Below, piece by piece: positions 211 to 27,900 of a stretch of 34,709 bases of DNA. The notes under the pieces are model-generated. The model had not been told where the DNA came from, did no database searches, and saw only the letters and a list, made by a program, of their open reading frames with translations. A program made the translations under genes and the position numbers. This stretch comes from Puniceicoccaceae bacterium. GTDB lineage: Bacteria > Verrucomicrobiota > Verrucomicrobiia > Opitutales > Opitutaceae. The stretch lies in NCBI GenBank assembly GCA_007695295.1, contig REEB01000053.1, positions 1 through 34,709 on the forward strand. The letters are read 5' to 3'. Position 1 is the stretch's first letter. The number at the start of each line of letters is the position of its first letter.

Positions 211-466
211 CCATCCACCACCCGAGGCAGCGTCGGTCTGACTCGTGGACCGCGTCCTTTCAGGCCGCGCCGTCGTGTTGTCCGATCATCCAGCCCGCTG
301 GGCTGGGCTATGGAATGGCCGCACCATTGGTGCTGAAGGCTGTCCAGGCTCCCGTTGCCGGGAGCCGTCACCGGTGATTTCCATGGTTTGACCTGGAGAA
401 CGCTTCGGGAGCATGCGCGTCCGGCCTTGATCGGCCGCATGGAGAAAGAACGGCTCTTGCGATGGG
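211..466. other. Non-coding stretch upstream of the efflux genes
   Basis: I see no convincing gene here. There are two small inverted repeats: GGCTCCC/GGGAGCC at 347-366 with a 6-base loop, and CGGCC/GGCCG at about 422-437. Neither is followed by a T-run, so neither looks like a classical terminator. No adjacent regulator gene (for example TetR type) is present in the window for the efflux pair. Confidence 0.5.
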
Positions 467-7524: not shown

Positions 7525-7599
7525 TGGCACCCCCACGGGGAATCGAACCCCGGTTTTAGGAATGAGAATCCTACGTCCTAGCCGCTAGACGATGGGGGC
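7525..7599 (-). tRNA. tRNA-Glu (anticodon CTC)
   Basis: Read on the minus strand, the sequence folds into a complete cloverleaf. The acceptor stem is GCCCCCA with TGGGGGT (G-U first pair, as in many bacterial and plastid tRNA-Glu). There is a D arm with GGCTAGG. The anticodon stem TAGGA/TCCTA encloses loop TTCTCAT, giving anticodon CTC, which reads GAG. The T arm is CGGGG-TTCGATT-CCCCG, the discriminator is G, and CCA is encoded. Length is 75 bases with CCA. It is a single isolated tRNA gene between the LacI-type regulator and the MFS gene. An A+T-rich patch at about 7621-7637 upstream of its 5' end (GATAAAACTATTTT on the plus strand) is the probable promoter area; I cannot define the boxes. 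Confidence 0.95.
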
Positions 7600-18967: not shown

Positions 18968-19282
18968 ATGATCGTCACCACCGTTTCCGTGCAGGTTAAG
19001 CCCGAGCACGTGGACGCCTTCATCGAGGCGACCGCGGACAACCACCGCCACTCCATCAAGGAGCCCGGCAATCTTCGCTTTGACGTTCTCCAGCAGCGGG
19101 ACGACCCCTGCCGCTTCACTTTGTACGAAGCCTATGAGACGGAGGAAGCGGTCGCCGCCCACAAGGAAACGGCGCACTACCGGCGCTGGCGGGCGGCCGT
19201 GGAGCCATGGATGGCGGAGCGGCGCCTTGGGATCGCCCACCGGGTGTTGTACCCGGCGGAGGTGGCGCGATGGAAGAGCTGA
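18968..19282 (+). CDS. LsrG-like antibiotic biosynthesis monooxygenase (ABM) fold protein
   Basis: Small cytoplasmic protein, 104 residues, of the ABM/LsrG/YgiN dimeric ferredoxin-like fold. It aligns well by eye with E. coli LsrG: VQVKPEHVDAFIEA, NHRHSIKEPGNLRFDVLQQ, FTLYEAYETEEAVAAHKET and the following HY. LsrG acts on the phosphorylated autoinducer-2 breakdown product (an isomerase), but relatives are quinol monooxygenases or of unknown function, so the reaction here is open. There is no lsr transporter or kinase in the window. A weak GGAAG precedes ATG 18968. It overlaps the alcohol dehydrogenase gene by 13 bases, which implies one operon and probably one pathway. Confidence 0.85.
   Translation: MIVTTVSVQVKPEHVDAFIEATADNHRHSIKEPGNLRFDVLQQRDDPCRFTLYEAYETEEAVAAHKETAHYRRWRAAVEPWMAERRLGIAHRVLYPAEVARWKS
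19258..19262 (+). promoter_or_regulatory. Ribosome binding site GGAGG for the alcohol dehydrogenase
   Basis: GGAGG lies inside the end of the LsrG-like gene, 7 bases before ATG 19270. It is one of the few strong Shine-Dalgarno sequences in the window and decides the dehydrogenase start against the 21-codon longer open frame beginning at 19207. Confidence 0.65.
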
Positions 19283-20451
19283 AGCCCTTCGCGATCGGGC
19301 GGCTGCCGGCGATCCGGTTCGGCGCCGGCGTATTCAGGGAGCTTCCGGAGCGGATCGAGCGCCGGGCTCGGCGGGTCCTGCCGGTGGTGGGCGGACGGTC
19401 CTTTGTCGAGAGTGCCGCCGGGGCGTGGTTTTTCGAAACCTTGGGTGAGCGGGTCGAAATGGCGGAGCCGGTGCGGGTGGCGGAGGAGCCTTCTCCGGAA
19501 GAGGTGGATGCGGCGGTGGCGGCCCACCGGGACTTCGAACCCGAGCTGGTGGTGGCGATCGGGGGCGGGAGCGTGCTGGATGCGGGCAAGGCGATCGCCG
19601 CCATGCTGACGGAAGAGGGCAGTGTGATGGAGGTTCTCGAAGGAGTGGGCAAGCGGGAGCCCATGGGCACGACCCGGCCACTGTTTGCGGTTCCCACCAC
19701 CGCGGGGACGGGGAGCGAGGCGACGAAAAATGCCGTTCTCAGCCGGGTGGGGCGGGACGGCTTCAAGAAGTCGCTCCGTCATGACGCGTTTGTGCCGGAA
19801 CTGGCGCTGCTGGATCCAGAGTTGACGGTCGGGCTGCCGCGGGAGTTGACAGTGGCCTGTGGCATGGACGCCCTCTCCCAGCTTATGGAGTCCTATCTTT
19901 CGACCGGAGCGAATCCCATCACGGATGCCCTGGCCCTCGACGGGATGGCCCGCTTCGCTGCGGGATTTCCGCGGGTTCTCAAGGACGGGGCCGATGTGGC
20001 CGCCCGTGGGCAGGTGATGTATGCGGCTTTGATGTCGGGAATCACTCTGGCTCATGCCGGACTGGCGGCGATTCATGCCCTGGCGGGATATATTGGCGGG
20101 CGGTGGCGGATGCCCCATGGGGCGGTCTGCGGAACCCTGCTGGGGGAGGCGATGGCGGTTTCCATTCGGCGGATGCGCGCCGAGCCCGAGGGTTATCGGG
20201 TTCCGTTGGAGAAGCTTGCCCGGGTGGGCCGGCTGCTGGCGGCCGCGCCCCGGATGCCGGACGGTGAAGCGGTCGAAGCGGTGCCGAATTTCCTGCGGGA
20301 GTGGACACAGCGTCTGGAGTTGCCCCGGCTCTCGGACCATGGGATCGCCCGGGACGACCTGGCCGGGATTGCCCGCGGGAGCGGCCTGAAAAGCCATCCC
20401 TGTCCTCTGTCCGAGGGGGAACTGATGGAAGTATTGGCGGCACGCTGGTAA
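19270..20451 (+). CDS. Iron-containing (group III) alcohol dehydrogenase
   Basis: NAD(P)-dependent dehydrogenase of the FucO/maleylacetate reductase/glycerol dehydrogenase superfamily, 393 residues, the usual length. The nucleotide-binding motif GGGSVLDAGKAIA (about 98-110) and TTAGTGSEATKNAV (about 143-156) are present. Of the four family metal-ligand positions, Asp200, His269 (IHALAG) and His283 (MPHGAV) are visible. The second position, usually His in DALTHAIE, is Gln204 (GMDALSQLMES). Glycerol dehydrogenase uses three ligands only, so this need not abolish activity, but it argues for a subfamily with different metal or substrate preference. Cotranscribed with the LsrG-like gene, which suggests a carbonyl or dione-type intermediate, but this is inference. 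Confidence 0.9.
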   Translation: MEELKPFAIGRLPAIRFGAGVFRELPERIERRARRVLPVVGGRSFVESAAGAWFFETLGERVEMAEPVRVAEEPSPEEVDAAVAAHRDFEPELVVAIGGGSVLDAGKAIAAMLTEEGSVMEVLEGVGKREPMGTTRPLFAVPTTAGTGSEATKNAVLSRVGRDGFKKSLRHDAFVPELALLDPELTVGLPRELTVACGMDALSQLMESYLSTGANPITDALALDGMARFAAGFPRVLKDGADVAARGQVMYAALMSGITLAHAGLAAIHALAGYIGGRWRMPHGAVCGTLLGEAMAVSIRRMRAEPEGYRVPLEKLARVGRLLAAAPRMPDGEAVEAVPNFLREWTQRLELPRLSDHGIARDDLAGIARGSGLKSHPCPLSEGELMEVLAARW

Positions 20452-20501
20452 AGGCGGGACCGAGTCCGGACGCCCCGAGGCAGGAGAAGTTATCGGCGGC
20501 A

Positions 20502-20528
20502 GGTGCCCGGTTTCAGCGATAGGGCACC
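20502..20528. terminator. Inverted repeat after the alcohol dehydrogenase gene
   Basis: GGTGCCC (20502-20508) pairs with GGGCACC (20522-20528) across a 13-base loop, about 50 bases after the dehydrogenase stop. The T content that follows is low (GGATTTCATC), so termination is only plausible from position. Confidence 0.3.
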
Positions 20529-20583
20529 GGATTTCATCGCACCAGGCCGCAGGATCACCGATTTAGGGTCAGGCTATTTGTCG

Positions 20584-20600
20584 CACTGATGGACACTGAT
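20584..20600. repeat. CACTGAT-GGA-CACTGAT direct repeat
   Basis: Two identical 7-mers are separated by GGA. On the other strand it reads ATCAGTG-TCC-ATCAGTG. Similar motifs are, in my memory, common in intergenic DNA of Verrucomicrobiota and Planctomycetota, but I cannot check that here. Confidence 0.6.
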
Positions 20601-20707
20601 CCAGACGGGTGAGGACCGTGGCTGCCTGGGTGGCGGGCGGCGCGCCCGGCGGTCGCGCCCTACCAGGCGACTCCCCGGTCGCGGGACAGGCGGGAGGCGC
20701 TTTGGGG

Positions 20708-20746
20708 GCGAGATAGGGACGGGCGAGATAGGGGCGAGATAGGGAC
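20708..20746. repeat. Three tandem copies of GCGAGATAGGG
   Basis: Copies start at 20708, 20723 and 20734; the first and third are followed by AC. Spacings are 15 and 11 bases. It is a short imperfect tandem repeat without coding explanation. Confidence 0.75.
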
Positions 20747-20804
20747 AGGCTAAAGGGCGGGTTTGCACAAGACCGGTCTCGCCGCTGGCTTGGATCGACG
20801 GAGT

Positions 20805-20991
20805 GGCGCCTTTATAGCGCCGGAGGCGCGGCGGAGATTAGCCGGTGGCGCCAGCCACCGGATGGCGACCCTACACGGAATGCGCCCCGGCAGGGGCGCC
20901 GGATGTTGTGCACGCCTATTGCTGTGAAAAGTGGCGGGAGCATCTTGCTCCCGTGCGCTTCCGGGGAGGGGAAGGAACCTGGAAGGTTCCT
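20805..20991. repeat. Array of five short-loop hairpins
   Basis: Five near-perfect inverted repeats with 3-4-base loops follow one another: GCGCC-GGA-GGCGC (20817-20829, with an alternative partner GGCGC at 20805-20809), CCGGTGGC-GCCA-GCCACCGG (20842-20861), GCGCCCC-GGCA-GGGGCGC (20882-20899), CGGGAGCA-TCT-TGCTCCCG (20935-20953) and AGGAACCT-GGA-AGGTTCCT (20973-20991). The last two sit just beyond the dnaE stop codon (in the direction of dnaE transcription) and could help terminate or stabilise its transcript. The density of stems with minimal loops is far above what GC-rich chance sequence gives, and the stems share no sequence with each other, so this is an architecture rather than a copied element. 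Confidence 0.8.
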
Positions 20992-21007
20992 CTGCTTCGT
21001 GGTGGCT

Positions 21008-24000
21008 TCAGGCGCCGCGGCGGGCCCAGCGGCGGTTGTTTTCCCGGACCGTGAGGGGGGCGGAGAGGATGCGGCAGCCGGCGACGGCGGGGTGGCGGCG
21101 GAGGGCTTGGATCTCCGCGGGGTCGATCCGACAGGCGAGGGAGGAGGCGGTCTCGGCGACCGCGGCGGTGCCGTCGGGCATGAGGACGCCGATTTCAAAG
21201 GTGGTTTCGCCGAAGCGGGCGTCGGCATAGGCGCGGAGGGCGGCGAGGAAACCGGGGGCGGCGGAATCCGGACGCACGAACCATGTGATTTTGCGGATGA
21301 GGCCGGGGAGGTTGGGGGCGAGGGGGAGGATCTCGCGGGCGAGCAGGCGGGCGCCCTCGGCGCTTTGCAGGACGGTGCCGTGGACGAGCACGGGCTGCTC
21401 GCTGAGGAGGTTTTTGCCGAAGTCCTCGTAGGCATCGGCGTAACAATTGATCTCCATGGAGGCGAGGCGGCCGACGAGCTGAAAAACGGCCCAGGGGCGG
21501 TTGTCGCGTCGGGAGAGTTTTTTGGTGATGCCGGAGGCGAGGCCGCAGAGCCGAAAGTCGGTGCGGTCGGGCAGGTCCCGCAGTTCGGAGAAGGGGACGG
21601 TGTTGACGGCTTCATCGAGCCCGGCGAAGGCGTCCATGGGGTGGCCGCTGATGTAAAAGCCGAGCAGCTCTTTCTCGTACTGGAGCATTTCCGAGAGCGG
21701 GAAGGCTTCGCCGGCAACGGCCGGTCCGGCGCCTTCGCTGGAGCCGCCCGGGGGCGGGGGGGCGGCGACGGGACCGAGGAGGTCGAGAAAGGATTCCTGC
21801 CCGGCCGAGCGATCACGCTGGAGGGAGGCGGCCTGGGCGATGGCGGCCTCGAGGCGGCCGAAGAGGGCGCCGCGGGGCTCGCCGGAAAAGTCGAAGGCAC
21901 CGGCCTTGACGAGGCATTCCATGACCCGGCGGTTGAGGGTGCCGGACTCGAAGCGGAGGAGAAAGTCGTCGAGGTTTTCAAACCGCCCCCCGGCGCGACG
22001 CTCTTCGATGATGCGCTGGGCGGCGCCGTCGCCGACGCCCTTGATGGCGCCGAGGCCGAAGACGATCGAGCCCGGCCGGCCGGCGGCGCGATCGTCGGCT
22101 TCGTCGACAACGGGGGTGAAGGACAGCAGGGAGTCATTGACGTCCGGACTGAGGACGCGGATGCCCATGTTCCTGGCTTCGTCGATGAAGTGGGAGACCT
22201 TGTCGGCATTGCCGAGTTCGCTGGAGAGGAGGGCGGCCATGAACTCCACCGGGTAGTTGGCTTTCAAATACGCCGTGCGGTAGGAGAGCATGGCGTAGGC
22301 GGCGGAGTGGGATTTGTTGAAACCGTAGGCGGCGAATTTTTCGAGGATGCCGAAGATCTCGAGAGCTTGGGCGCGGCCGATGCCATGGGTGGCGGCGGCG
22401 CCTTGGACGAAGACCTCGCGCTGGGCCTCCATGACGGCGGCGATCTTTTTGCCCATGGCGCGGCGGAGGATGTCGGCGCCGCCGAGGGTGTAGCCAGCGA
22501 TGATGCGGGCGGCCTCCATGACCTGCTCCTGGTAGACGAGCACGCCGTAGGTTTCGGAGACCAGGTCCTTGAGCAGCGGGTGGGGGATCTGGATCCGGGC
22601 GGGATCGCGTTTGCCCTCGATGAACTGCGGGATGAACTGCATCGGGCCCGGGCGGTAGAGGGCGATGAGGGCGATGATTTCCTCGAAAGAGGAGATGCCG
22701 ATCTGCCGGCAGAGCGACTGCATGCCGCCGGACTCAAGCTGGAAAACGCCGACGGTGTTGCCGGAGTTGAGCAGGTCGAAGGTGCGGGGGTCGTCGAGCG
22801 GGATCTTCTCGATGTCGAAATCGGCTTGGTTGCGGGAGTGGCGGACGTTTTCCTGGGCGTCGGAGATGACGGTGAGGGTCTTGAGCCCGAGAAAGTCCAT
22901 CTTGAGCAACCCGAGATCCTCGGAGGGGCCTTTCGGATATTGGGTGGTGAGGTCGCCTTCCTGGAGGGTGACGGGGACGAGGTTTTGGATCGGCTGGTCG
23001 CCGATGATGATGCCGCAGGCGTGTTTGCCGGTGTTGCGGACCATGCCCTCGATGACCTTGCCGTGCTCGATGATGGTGCGGGCGACCGGGTTGCGCTCGA
23101 TTTCGGCGCGCAGCTCGCCGGACTTTTTGACCGCGTCCTCAAGGGAGATGTTGAGTTCGTCCGGGATCATCTTGGCGACCTTGTCGGCCTCGGCGAAGGG
23201 GATGTCATTCACCCGGGCGAGGTCGCGGACGATCATCTTGGCGCCGAAGGTGCCGAAGGTGATGATGTTGGCGACGCTTTCGCGGCCGTATTTTTCGCGG
23301 ACGTAGTTCACGACCTCGTCGCGGCGGCGCATGCAGAAATCGACGTCGAAATCCGGCGGGGAAACGCGTTCGAGGTTGAGCATGCGTTCGAAGAGCAGGC
23401 CGAAGCGGAGCGGATCGATATCGGTGATCTTGAGGACGTAGGCCACGATGCAGCCGGCCCCGGAGCCGCGGCCGGGGCCGACCGGGATGCCCTGGCGGCG
23501 GGCCCAGTCGATGAAGTCCCAGACGATGAGAAAGTAGTCGACGAAGCCGGCCCCGGTGATGATGGCGAGCTGGAAGTCGAGCTGGTCGCGGAGAAAGCGG
23601 GCGAAGTCCTCCGGCTCGCCGGGTTTGGGCGTGTAGGCCTCGGGGTGGTCGTAGTCGACGCCGTAGCGCTCGTGGAGGCCCTTTTTGCAGAGGTCGAGGA
23701 GGAGGAGGCCGTTGTGTTTGAAGGCGGCGCGTTCTTGAGGGGAAAGCCGGCAGACCTCGTCGCTGCCGTTCTGGCGGTTGACCCTGGTTTTTTCGCGCTC
23801 GTAGGTGTCGAGGATGCGTTCGAAAGCGGCTTCGTCGGGCCGGAGGGCGAGTTCGGCGGGCTTTTCGAAGACCGGGTAGTGGTTTTCGCCAAAAGGGATC
23901 TCCAGATCGCAGACGTCGGCCACGTGGACGGTGTTGTCGAGCGCCTCGGGCACCTCCCGGAAAATTGCGGCCATCTCCCCGCGGGTTTTGAGATAAAACT

Positions 24001-24805
24001 CCTGCGACGGGTAGCGCATGCGGTTGGGGTCGGAGATGATCTTGCCGGTCTGGATGCAGAGGAGGGCGTCGTGGGGGGCGGCGTCCTCCTTGTAGACGTA
24101 ATGGGCGTCGTTGGCGCAGATGACTTTGAGGTCGAACTCCCGGGCGAGGCGGATGAGGCCGGGTATGATGCGCTTCTGCACCGGCATGCCGTGGTCCTGG
24201 AGCTCGATGAAATAGTTTTCGCGGCCGAAGATGTCGACGAACGTGCCGACGGCCCGCCGGGCGTTTTCCTCGTCACCATAAATCAAATACTGGGAGGCGA
24301 CGCCGTTGATGCAGCCGGAGAGGCCGAGGAGGCCCCGGGAGTGGGCGGCGAGGGTTTCGAGATCGACCCGGGGGCGGTAGTACATGCCCTCGGTGTGGGC
24401 TTTGGAGACGAGTTTGCTGAGGTTTTGGTAGCCCTCGAAGTTTTTCGCGATGACTCCCTTGTGAAAGATCTGGAATTTTGGAAAATCCTCCTTGGGCGGG
24501 ATGTGGTCTTCCGGGATGTCGCCGATGTCGTCGGTGCGGGCGCGCTCGCGGCGGGGGCGTTCGTCCATCTTGTGGTCGTAGACGAGGTAGAGCTCGCAGC
24601 CGATGAGCGGCTTGATGCCGGCGGCCCGGCAGGCCTTGTAGAAATCGATGGCGCCGAAGAGATTGCCATGATCGGTCATGGCGAGGGCGGGCATGCCGAG
24701 CTCGGCGGCGCGGGCGGCGGCGCGGGCGGGCATGGAGCAGCCATCCAACAGCGAGTAGTGGGTGTGGTTGTGGAGGTGGACGAAAGGACGGTCGGGGGAA
24801 GCCAC
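21008..24805 (-). CDS. dnaE: DNA polymerase III alpha subunit (DnaE)
   Basis: Replicative polymerase, 1265 residues, somewhat longer than E. coli DnaE (1160). The N-terminal PHP domain (about 1-290) has its metal-binding residues apparently intact: [36 protein letters not shown] and CANDAHYV, unlike the E. coli protein where they have decayed. The polymerase core contains [16 protein letters not shown], the catalytic PDFDVDFC (aspartates at about 484-488) and [11 protein letters not shown] with the third aspartate at about 637. Helix-hairpin-helix motifs ([19 protein letters not shown]) and a C-terminal OB fold (about 1095-1175) follow. The start is GTG 24805; the PHP motif begins at residue 8, so little can be missing. 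Extra length lies mainly between PHP and palm. It is divergent from the sensor kinase gene. Confidence 0.97.
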
Positions 24806-24934
24806 GGGAGCTAGCTCAAAGGGGTGGGGGGCAGGGTCAACCCAGATCGGCCGCGGCAGGCTTGACGGCTCGCGCCCCGGTCGGGAAGATCACACTTGCC
24901 GCCGGTTTGCGGTGGCGCGCCCTTGCCGACCTCG

Positions 24935-27900
24935 ATGTTTTTGCGACCCCTTCCACTGCGGATACTGCTCCCGGCGCTGCTGTTTGTTTTTCTCTGCCTG
25001 GTGGTGCTGGCGGAGACCTGGCTACGAACCAAAGTGCTGCGACAGGCCCTGGTGCGGGTGGAGCAGGAACGCCATGCCTCCATGACGCAGAGCCTTCGAT
25101 TTCAGGTCGAACTGCTGGACGAGGCGGCGCGGAGCCAGGAGATCGCGACGCGCCTGCAGAGTGCGGCCCGAATGCCGGCGGTGAATTGGACCGTGGTGGC
25201 TGATTCGCGGGGTCGGATCATTTTCAGCAGCGAACCCGCCTGGGTGGGTTTGGCCCTTCCCGCCGTGGTGGAAGGCGTCGGCTTTCCCGGGCCACCCTGG
25301 GCTGCTCCGAGCCGTGAGGTGGCGATGCTGGAAACGAACCAAGGCCGGCAGCGGCGGTTGCTGGCCTGGACGGAGGTCATGCTGCAGGATCCCGCCGGGG
25401 AGAGCCGGATGATCCTGGTGGTGGAGCGCAGCCTGGAGCCTCTGATGGCCGCGATCGAGGAGGGCACCCGCATGTTGAACCTCGCCCTCATCGGCGGCAG
25501 CGCGGGCCTGGCGATACTCTTTGGCCTCCTCTGTCACTTCCTCATCTCGCGGCGGATGGGGAAACTGGCCGCCGCGGCGGAAGCGTTTTCGGTCGGGCTG
25601 GAGCCGGGCTTGCCGGAGCGGAGCGGGCGCGACGAGATTGATCATGCCTCCGAGGCCATCCGCCGGATGCTTGAACTGATCAACCGGCAGACCGCCCGTT
25701 TGGCCGACTACGAAACGCTGTTCAAAATCATCGCGCGCAACCTGCCGGGCGGAGACCTGTTCATCATCGACCGCGACCTGCGCTTTGTGCTCGCGGACGG
25801 CACCACCATGCGCCGGCACGGGTTCAAACCGGAGAGCTTCGCGGGCAAGTCGATTTACGAAGTGGATTTTGGCGAGTCCCGGGATGCATTGATCAAGCTC
25901 TACCAAGAAACGGCTGCGGGCAGTGAATCCCAACTTGAGCTGATCCATGGAGGGGAGCACTTCCTGATCCGCAGCGTTCCCCTCCGGCTCGAACAGGAGG
26001 GTCGGCTGGCGGCCGTCCTCTTGTCGCAGAACATCACGACCCTGAAGCGGGCCCAGGAGACCTTGGAGGAGTCCGGTCGGGCCTACCGGCAGCTCTTCGA
26101 GAAGAATCCTTCCCCGATGTTTGTCTACGATGTGGAGACGCTGCGCTTTCTCGAGGCCAACGAAGCCGCCATCCGGGACTACGGATGGAGCCGGGAGGAG
26201 TTTCTCGGGCTGACCATCCGCGATATCCGCCCGCCCGAGGATGTGCCCAAGCTAATGGAAACAATCGCTGCGCAGAGGAATGAGCTGCGCCGGTTCGGGG
26301 TCTGGCGGCACTGCCGCAAAGATGGCTCGATGCTCCACGTCGAAGTGGCCTCCCACGGGATTGACTTTCGCGGTCGGGCGGCCCGGCTGGTTCAGGTCTT
26401 CGACGTGACCGAACGAGTCCATGCCGAGCAAGCCCTCGCGGCCAGCCGCGACCAGCTCAAGGAAATGCTCGAAAGCATGAGCCTGGTGGTGGTGATGGTG
26501 GACACCGAAGGCAGGATCACCTACTGCAATCCCTGCTTTTGCGAAACCACCGGCTGGACCAAGGACGAGTTGCTGGGCTGCGACTACCTGGAGCGCTTCA
26601 TCCCCGCGGAGCTGCGCGCGACCATGGACCAGGCTTTCCGTGAAGGGATGGTGTCGGGTGCCTTCCCGCGCCGCTTCCAGAACCCCATCCTGCACCGGGA
26701 CGGCCGCCCGATCGAAGTTGCTTGGAGCAACTCGCCGATCTTCAACGACGAGGGTGCCATTGTCGGCCTCGCCTGCATCGGCGAGGACATCAGCCCGCGC
26801 CTCGAAGCGGAAAGGAAACGGGAAGAGGCGGCGAAGCAGCGCGACGAACTGCTGCGCCACTACCAGATCCAGTTCACTTCCATGCCGCTCGGCTGCCTGA
26901 TCAGCGATACCACAATGCGAGTGCAGGACTGCAACCCGCAGTTCGAGCGGATCTTTGGCTACAGTCTCGAAGAACTCAATGGCCGTGACATCATTGAAAT
27001 CATCGTCCCCAAGGACCTGCGGGAGGAGGTGCGCGACGTGGTGGACAACGCGCTCAAACACTTGTCCACCGTCACCAAAGTCAACCTCAACCGGACGAGG
27101 GACGGTCGTCTCATCACCTGCAAGTGGTACAACACCATGCTGACCGACGAGCACGGCGAAGGCATCGGCATGATTTCCATGGTCGAGGATATCTCCGATG
27201 AAATCGCGGCCGCAGAGCAGCTTCGCTCCCTCAACGCAGAGCTGGAGCATCGGGTTGCCGAGCGCACCGGTGAGCTGGAGGCGGCCAACCGTGAGCTGGA
27301 GTCGTTCAGTTATTCCGTCTCCCACGACCTGCGCGCACCGCTGCGCGGCATTGATGGTTTTGCCCGCATCTTGCGCGAGGAGGCGGGAGACCGCCTGGAT
27401 GCCTCCGCCAACGAATTGTTGGACCGGATCACGACCAACGTTGCCCGCATGGGGCGATTGATCGACGACCTCCTGGCCTTTTCCCGGCTGGCCCGGAGCA
27501 CGCTCACCCATGTCGAAGTGCCGATGGAAGCGGTGGTGCGGGAGTGCCTGCAGGAGCAGGCCAGTGGCGCAACCCTGGACCGGGTGGAACTGGTCATGGA
27601 CGAGCTGCCCCCGGCGCGGTGCGATCCCGCCATGGTCCGGGTGGTCTGGAACAACCTCCTCTCCAACGCCCTGAAATTTTCCCGGACCCGCCCGGTCATC
27701 CGGATCCGAATCACCGGCGAGGTGGAAGGCAGGATGGTGCGCTACACCATCGCCGACAATGGCGTCGGCTTCGACATGAGGTATGCGCACAAGCTCTTCC
27801 AAGTCTTCCAGCGCCTCCACGGCCCGCGTGATTACGAGGGCACCGGAGTCGGACTTGCCCTCGTGCAACGCGTGGTCCACCGCCACGGCGGCCAAGTGCG

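Follow-up and report, generated by a model that had tools for sequence, protein, structure and literature searches.

The five hairpins situated between two convergent genes of an Opitutaceae genome are best read, at a probability of approximately 0.83, as non-autonomous palindromic repeats linked to transposases, which have accumulated there as a BIME-like mosaic and of which hairpins 1 to 3 would constitute one end of an IS200-like element. That the array consists of repeats, that the ends have three hairpins, and how the elements are positioned and oriented around transposase genes are matters of observation.

The hairpin array and its repeats

The array is housed in the convergent intergenic interval 20452-21007 of the window (the whole 34,709 nt stretch of DNA analysed), between a gene encoding a Fe-dependent alcohol dehydrogenase (+ strand, ending at 20451) and dnaE (- strand, stop codon at 21008-21010). 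Hairpin 1 (20817-20829; 5 bp stem, 3 nt loop), hairpin 2 (CCGGTGGC-GCCA-GCCACCGG; 20842-20861; 8 bp stem, 4 nt loop) and hairpin 3 (20882-20899; 7 bp stem, 4 nt loop), none of which is assigned a strand, are followed by hairpin 4, where a GTGG tag precedes CGGGAGCA-TCT-TGCTCCCG (20931-20953, + strand; stem at 20935-20953, 8 bp, 3 nt loop), and by the likewise strandless hairpin 5 (AGGAACCT-GGA-AGGTTCCT; 20973-20991; 8 bp stem, 3 nt loop). The original description of five short-loop inverted repeats in fewer than 190 bases is borne out, as all five stems are perfect, with a length of 5 bp in one and of 7 to 8 bp in the other four, and with loops of 3 to 4 nt over a total of 187 nt. The stems had also been described as unrelated, and they are indeed mutually unrelated, yet every one of them recurs at least once elsewhere in the genome, and they are as such not five independent inventions. 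Elsewhere in the window, a tRNA gene was identified at 7528-7599 (- strand; RF00005, 59.8 bits).

Comparison of the region 20700-21007 against its own genome yielded 67 matches, itself included. The sequence from approximately 20730 to 20927 recurs wholly or in part and represents one dispersed repeat carrying hairpins 1 to 3 (20817-20899), while 20928-20957, containing hairpin 4, recurs as a second repeat family, and hairpins 4 and 5 are found together once more (C5:1253-1317). A repeat-generating process, one of the possibilities raised at the outset, is thus supported. Three short tandem copies of a GGGGCGAGATAGGGACGGGC-like sequence occupy 20705-20750, where the dispersed repeat has its left boundary. 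Thirty-two repeat clusters lie outside the window, two of which overlap a predicted gene and seven of which have an unknown neighbour. The neighbouring genes, called with a simple codon-usage script, are in tandem at 14, convergent at eight and divergent at one of the 23 clusters for which both are known (convergent versus divergent, two-sided sign test, p = 0.04; two clusters share one C41 interval). The proposed location of copies between convergent genes therefore holds for the window and, at 8/23 clusters, is not rare. Among the own-genome loci examined, two copies occur 50-130 nt apart in eight places, in the same outward layout as around genes and at a spacing too small for a gene in between, while the opposite layout is observed in two close pairs (C51 and C90).

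Hairpin 4 is, as judged from its tag, palindrome and copy number, a REP of the GTAG superfamily. Its pattern, GTRGCGGGAGCATCTTGCTCCCG, is present in 70 copies with three or fewer mismatches, 15 of them exact and the window copy counted in, and four inverted pairs are spaced 11-13 nt apart, while the reversed control pattern has no copies. A plausible RAYT adjoins this REP on one side only, with a copy located approximately 0.2 kb upstream of a Y1 open frame on C198 and the next downstream copy lying past another open frame. The single further copy found of hairpin 5 (C5:1255-1281) is again located by a hairpin 4 copy and shows a compensatory stem change. GTRG-tagged REP copies on contigs C142, C43, C49 and others of this genome (G000) adjoin palindromes such as CCCGCGGTCGCGGG and GTCCGCCTGCGCCGCAGGCGGAC, which apparently represent further repeat families.

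To the left of hairpin 1, the motif AGGGACAGGCTA (20741-20752, + strand) resembles a TIRYT terminal repeat. It flanks both sides of four of the eleven Y1 loci in this genome (L064, L065, L067 and L070; inverted in the last three), is present on one side at L066 and L068, and was not found at the remaining own-genome Y1 loci. The motif is joined to the hairpin 1 to 3 repeat in the window and in some other copies. As it also adjoins several of the longer Y1 genes of this genome, the window stacks repeats linked to at least two, and possibly three, Y1 transposase types.

Short Y1 transposase genes and their flanking elements

Hairpins 1 and 2 match RF01687, the Acido-Lenti-1 RNA of Weinberg et al. 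(2010; PMC2864571), at 20816-20861 on the - strand, with a covariance-model score of 46.6 bits against a gathering threshold of 37, and ten copies in this genome, the window copy counted, exceed that threshold. In the Verrucomicrobiota, RF01687-type elements form the terminal structures of genes encoding Y1/HUH transposases of approximately 150 amino acids with a Y---Q--HH signature. In relatives containing RF01687, three of four short Y1 genes (L206, L208 and L211) carry copies on both sides, one of those at L208 being weak (21.5 bits), while related elements lie close to the fourth (L207/L270) in a different arrangement. Alignment of five of the proteins (148-152 amino acids, including one encoded on contig C169 of the genome under study) revealed H55, H57, W94, Q95, Y114, Q118, H121 and H122 to be invariant in all five. 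The HUH motif mostly takes the form DH[IVL]H, with EHVH in one of the five, and together with WQ, Y---Q--HH and the length of approximately 150 amino acids it agrees with TnpA-Y1 subclass 1.2. A profile of the five proteins detects members in 86 of 387 Verrucomicrobiota genomes (E ≤ 1e-15).

Searches with cmscan (RF01687, E ≤ 1) of 1.5 kb flanks detected the element at 19 of 30 transposase loci, one from each of 30 genomes, and at none of 20 other Y1 loci (Fisher p = 2e-6). Eight of the 30 loci have a match above threshold, while no RF01687 was detected by cmscan at 11/30, among them the C169 locus and L270. Across 57 relatives, eight contain both a strong transposase and RF01687, two the gene only, eight RF01687 only and 39 neither (Fisher p = 0.00026), with G018 and G024, which have only weak profile matches (E of about 1e-16 to 1e-18), counted among the genomes without the gene. 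The protein of G024 (L205) is without the HH signature. Scored simply for inverted repeats, the flanks gave a weaker signal than with the covariance model; relative to mismatched pairs, 10/30 exceeded the 99% level and 17/30 the 95% level. The long Y1 genes of the genome under study found no support as partners of hairpins 1 to 3, with no RF01687 matches at L062-L071, although the AGGGACAGGCTA motif beside several of them is joined to the repeat. Outside the Verrucomicrobiota, a similar, weaker arrangement occurs on a Persicobacter (Bacteroidota) plasmid, with an RF01687 match on the left (35.7 bits, below threshold) and a match on the right (E = 0.21) to R1, a covariance model built from 18 transposase-flanking elements. 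Bernardetia (two loci) and Kovacikia (one locus) gave no RF01687 match.

As an independent test, R1 was run on 40 additional loci (32 genomes; flanks of up to 4.5 kb per side), where it gave 121 hits at E ≤ 0.01. Sequence no more than 300 nt from the gene (23.5 kb in total) holds 74 of these, and sequence beyond 1.5 kb (207 kb) holds four, corresponding to densities of 3.16 and 0.019 per kb, respectively. Hits within 300 nt occur at 33 of the 40 loci, on both sides at 18, such that seven loci have none and 22 have at least one side empty. The nearest copies, mostly situated 40-130 nt from the gene, are arranged in inverted orientation around it, the left one being on the - strand in 23/26 cases and the right one on the + strand in 24/25. 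Other Y1 genes (36 loci) gave just three weak hits, with E-values of 0.18 to 0.95. Of the first 30 loci, the model matched 28 at E ≤ 0.01, 11 of which had contributed to its training, and missed the C169 locus and L281. At L299 (1044-2739; genome G233), Acido-Lenti-1 copies are located on both sides of the transposase gene approximately 70 nt apart and mostly in one orientation, a tandem rather than a doublet expansion. A second Acido-Lenti-1-like element is present near the contig start in the window (289-334, + strand; R1: 28.3 bits, E = 0.0002), with a stem of another type, CCAGCCC/GGGCTGG.

A typical end comprises an outer, a main and an inner hairpin. Inward of the main hairpin, 86% of 120 flanks have a further stem of at least 5 bp, versus 17% in shuffles, and among 25 of these flanks the inner hairpin is mostly separated from the main one by 20-33 nt. 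The window sequence at 20817-20899 has the same order and spacing, with hairpin 1 as the outer, hairpin 2 as the main and, 20 nt away, hairpin 3 as the inner hairpin, and with a TTAG foot (20838-20841, + strand) directly 5′ of the main stem. It thus combines the three hairpins and the AG-ending foot of a subclass 1.2 Y1 element end. The foot ends in AG in all 95 distinct test-set copies (NNAG) and reads GTAG in just two of them, a count to be read with the preference of R1 for AG. The GT[AG]G foot of canonical GTAG REPs is absent from hairpins 1 to 3, while the C169 flanks do have GTAG. The prevalence of NNAG over GTAG may explain why these ends were missed in a search for GT[AG]G.

The window copy itself has no adjoining transposase gene and, at 20816-20861, gave no R1 match at E ≤ 1; on that test it failed, although an R1 match is not a published defining feature. 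Its assignment to the family is made through RF01687 itself and through the stem shared with the C169 locus. Both flanks of the C169 gene contain hairpins with the stem CCGGTGGT/ACCACCGG and a GTAG foot, which differ from the main stem in the window by one base pair and have a longer loop, a CCGGTGG stem being common to both. The C169 flanks were missed by R1 and by cmscan (E ≤ 1) alike, and were linked to the family by sequence reading. The C169 transposase gene (124-564, - strand) lies in an open frame that reaches 380 codons, the upstream palindromes being open in frame, and the contig ends approximately 120 nt downstream, within a repeat. Furthermore, a cluster on contig C49 contains several copies of the window repeat alongside C169-type repeats and a 23-residue transposase remnant (57% identity; E = 0.005).

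The structure model of the C169 protein (mean pLDDT 85.5) has an IS200/IS605- and RAYT-like fold, with TM values, normalised by query length, of 0.48-0.62 against the transposases of ISDra2 and IS608 and against 4er8, a RAYT-REP complex. IS200/IS605 and RAYT enzymes bind single-stranded DNA hairpins, according to the sections of PMC6006769 and PMC8266576 that describe them, and the similarity in fold suggests the same binding here. The initial proposal of selection on structure through a hairpin-recognising protein is strengthened accordingly by the finding that the family elements flank genes of a transposase class known to bind DNA hairpins.

Chance, termination and RNA as alternatives

That short inverted repeats are crowded here by chance, the DNA being GC-rich, could be argued for from a 214 kb sample of the genome (20 contigs picked by number, up to 20 kb from the start of each), in which hairpins with stems of 7 bp or more number 50 against approximately 49 in shuffles, and no site has three such hairpins in 250 nt. 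The array itself, however, exceeds chance. It is the hairpin-densest 187 nt stretch of the window (20805-20991), and in agreement with the expectation that shuffled sequence would not be as dense in stems, none of 2000 dinucleotide shuffles of that stretch equalled the array in either count: it has four stems of 7 bp or longer, where the shuffles had at most two, and five of 5 bp or longer, where they had at most four. RNA folding of the array gave z-scores of -3.5 (+ strand) and -3.0 (- strand). Similar arrays had been predicted elsewhere in the genome; none occurs in the 214 kb sample, but comparable hairpin clusters are present at other copies of the repeats, on C49 by sequence reading and on C5, C51 and C69 by BLAST. 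With hairpins 1 to 4 being many-copy repeats and hairpin 5 having one further copy, a chance origin is already refuted by the repeat copies, and we regard its probability as negligible. The array could also terminate transcription of dnaE and of the alcohol dehydrogenase gene from both directions, or protect the 3′ ends of their mRNAs, possibly through co-option of mobile repeats. The genes on both sides are convergent, the dnaE stop codon is situated 16 nt from the end of hairpin 5, and REPs are reported in PMC3733652 mainly between convergent or unidirectional genes, with which the ratio of eight convergent clusters to one divergent cluster agrees. No intrinsic terminator (GC stem and T run) was, however, found on either strand of 20452-21007, the same repeats are located at other genes, and the array is absent from the approximately 320 nt downstream of dnaE in all 11 relatives compared (a subset of 80 loci fetched), two of which have a single hairpin there. 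The four closest dnaE relatives (68-78% identity) are Opitutaceae/Opitutales MAGs of the Verrucomicrobiota. A dedicated dnaE 3′ structure is thus unlikely, and the array is probably a lineage-specific insertion. In a plasmid search with 19000-25200, all of the matches listed (5 of 156) fall inside the dnaE part, one extending three bases past it. The suggested functions as dnaE 3′ end, in termination or in RNA processing are consequently not supported, the stems of the family being, moreover, nearly free of G-U pairs. A role in termination or protection is compatible with a mobile origin, the two not being mutually exclusive, but we consider it improbable.

A further alternative is that Acido-Lenti-1 is a genuine small or cis-acting RNA, as RF01687 is typed in Rfam (sRNA), and is brought close to transposase genes by hitch-hiking only. 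Its structure is conserved through compensatory changes, with two-sided changes in 11 of 13 pairs and one-sided changes in none across 18 aligned elements, such that stems vary between genomes while pairing is preserved, and its copies are mainly intergenic, where transcription is possible. Among the 95 distinct copies, 1168 cells are Watson-Crick, four G-U and 22 mismatched, while 41 have gaps, and G-U is not commoner than chance among the non-Watson-Crick cells. This intolerance of G-U, not expected of an RNA helix, is consistent with a hairpin selected as DNA rather than as RNA and would argue against an expressed RNA, with a possible bias in the count from the training of R1 on copies without G-U. 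Template switching within palindromes could contribute to the pattern. The stereotyped outward placement around one transposase subfamily and the existence of inverted doublets likewise speak against an RNA, which we judge to be very unlikely. General descriptions of RF01687 carry a link to group II introns. No RF00029 match at E ≤ 0.01 was obtained in this genome (150 of 229 candidates scored), and an RF01687 match occurs in the flanks of only one of nine intron loci of relatives. A striking expansion was observed in G041, a 1.3 Mb genome of the same order, with at least 87 near-identical Acido-Lenti-1 matches (L078, L093 and L103). Several of these are paired in inverted orientation or located where a contig begins, and the genome has a single match to a Y1 transposase.

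Relation to known systems and proposed mobility

In its section on subclass 1.2, PMC6006769 lists REP as 'no' and describes these transposases as generally lacking typical terminal structures and as found mostly in Cyanobacteria and Bacteroidetes. The proteins described here share their length of approximately 150 amino acids and the WQ and Y---Q--HH motifs, with class assignment made by motifs and length, but differ in their presence across the Verrucomicrobiota and in being commonly flanked by multiple hairpins. With the REP/BIME/REPIN systems and their RAYT transposases, as portrayed in the relevant parts of PMC3733652 and PMC8266576, the elements have in common an extragenic location, inverted doublets, mosaic clusters and linkage to a transposase. 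Hairpin 4 furthermore carries the GTAG/GTGG tag, GTGG being reported in the account of Opitutus terrae in PMC3733652 for most of its GTAG-20 elements, while hairpins 1 to 3 differ in their NNAG rather than GTRG foot and in the three hairpins per end. The AGGGACAGGCTA motif resembles the GGGGWSAS motif of the TIRYT/TIRtrons, as given in the part of PMC3733652 devoted to them (one mismatch), and likewise adjoins long Y1 genes, but in the window it is joined to an Acido-Lenti-1 repeat without a transposase gene. Acido-Lenti-1 RNA, in the entry of PMC2864571, shares the two-hairpin layout and GGCTA linker with hairpins 1 and 2; it is listed as an RNA, whereas the copies described here act like the termini of a DNA element, in most cases with an inner hairpin as the third and frequently in twos that enclose a transposase gene.

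We propose that hairpins 1 to 3 represent one complete end (outer, main and inner) of an IS200-like element, the autonomous form of which would carry a Y1/HUH transposase of approximately 150 amino acids and Y---Q--HH type (subclass 1.2), and that the outer and main part is what Rfam lists as Acido-Lenti-1 RNA. Hairpin 4 would be a GTRG-tagged REP of another family. The transposase may bind the hairpins as single-stranded DNA, read the AG-ending foot and cut beside the hairpin, thereby moving or amplifying both the gene-bearing element and the gene-less doublets. The window copy would then be half a doublet, its partner having either disappeared or given way to the unit of hairpins 4 and 5.

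It is likely that RF01687 is wrongly classed as an RNA family and represents the ends of a widespread IS200-like element, structured as single-stranded DNA, with the subclass 1.2 HUH transposases as its enzymes. These would recognise the hairpin ends with their NNAG foot by shape rather than by stem sequence, such that the stems may diversify in concert between families and leave gene-less doublets around genomes. We did not find the link between RF01687 and subclass 1.2 in the open-licence literature, and it may be in print elsewhere. The link would bring together an Rfam RNA to which no role has been assigned and a transposase subclass for which no target sites had been known, both of them orphans, and predicts a concrete substrate for the purified protein, namely three-hairpin ends with an NNAG foot. 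Furthermore, annotations of Acido-Lenti-1 as a non-coding RNA may mark mobile DNA. One such example may be the copies noted downstream of protease genes in Tannerella, which are suggested as possible regulators in the passage of PMC13298647 that reports them.
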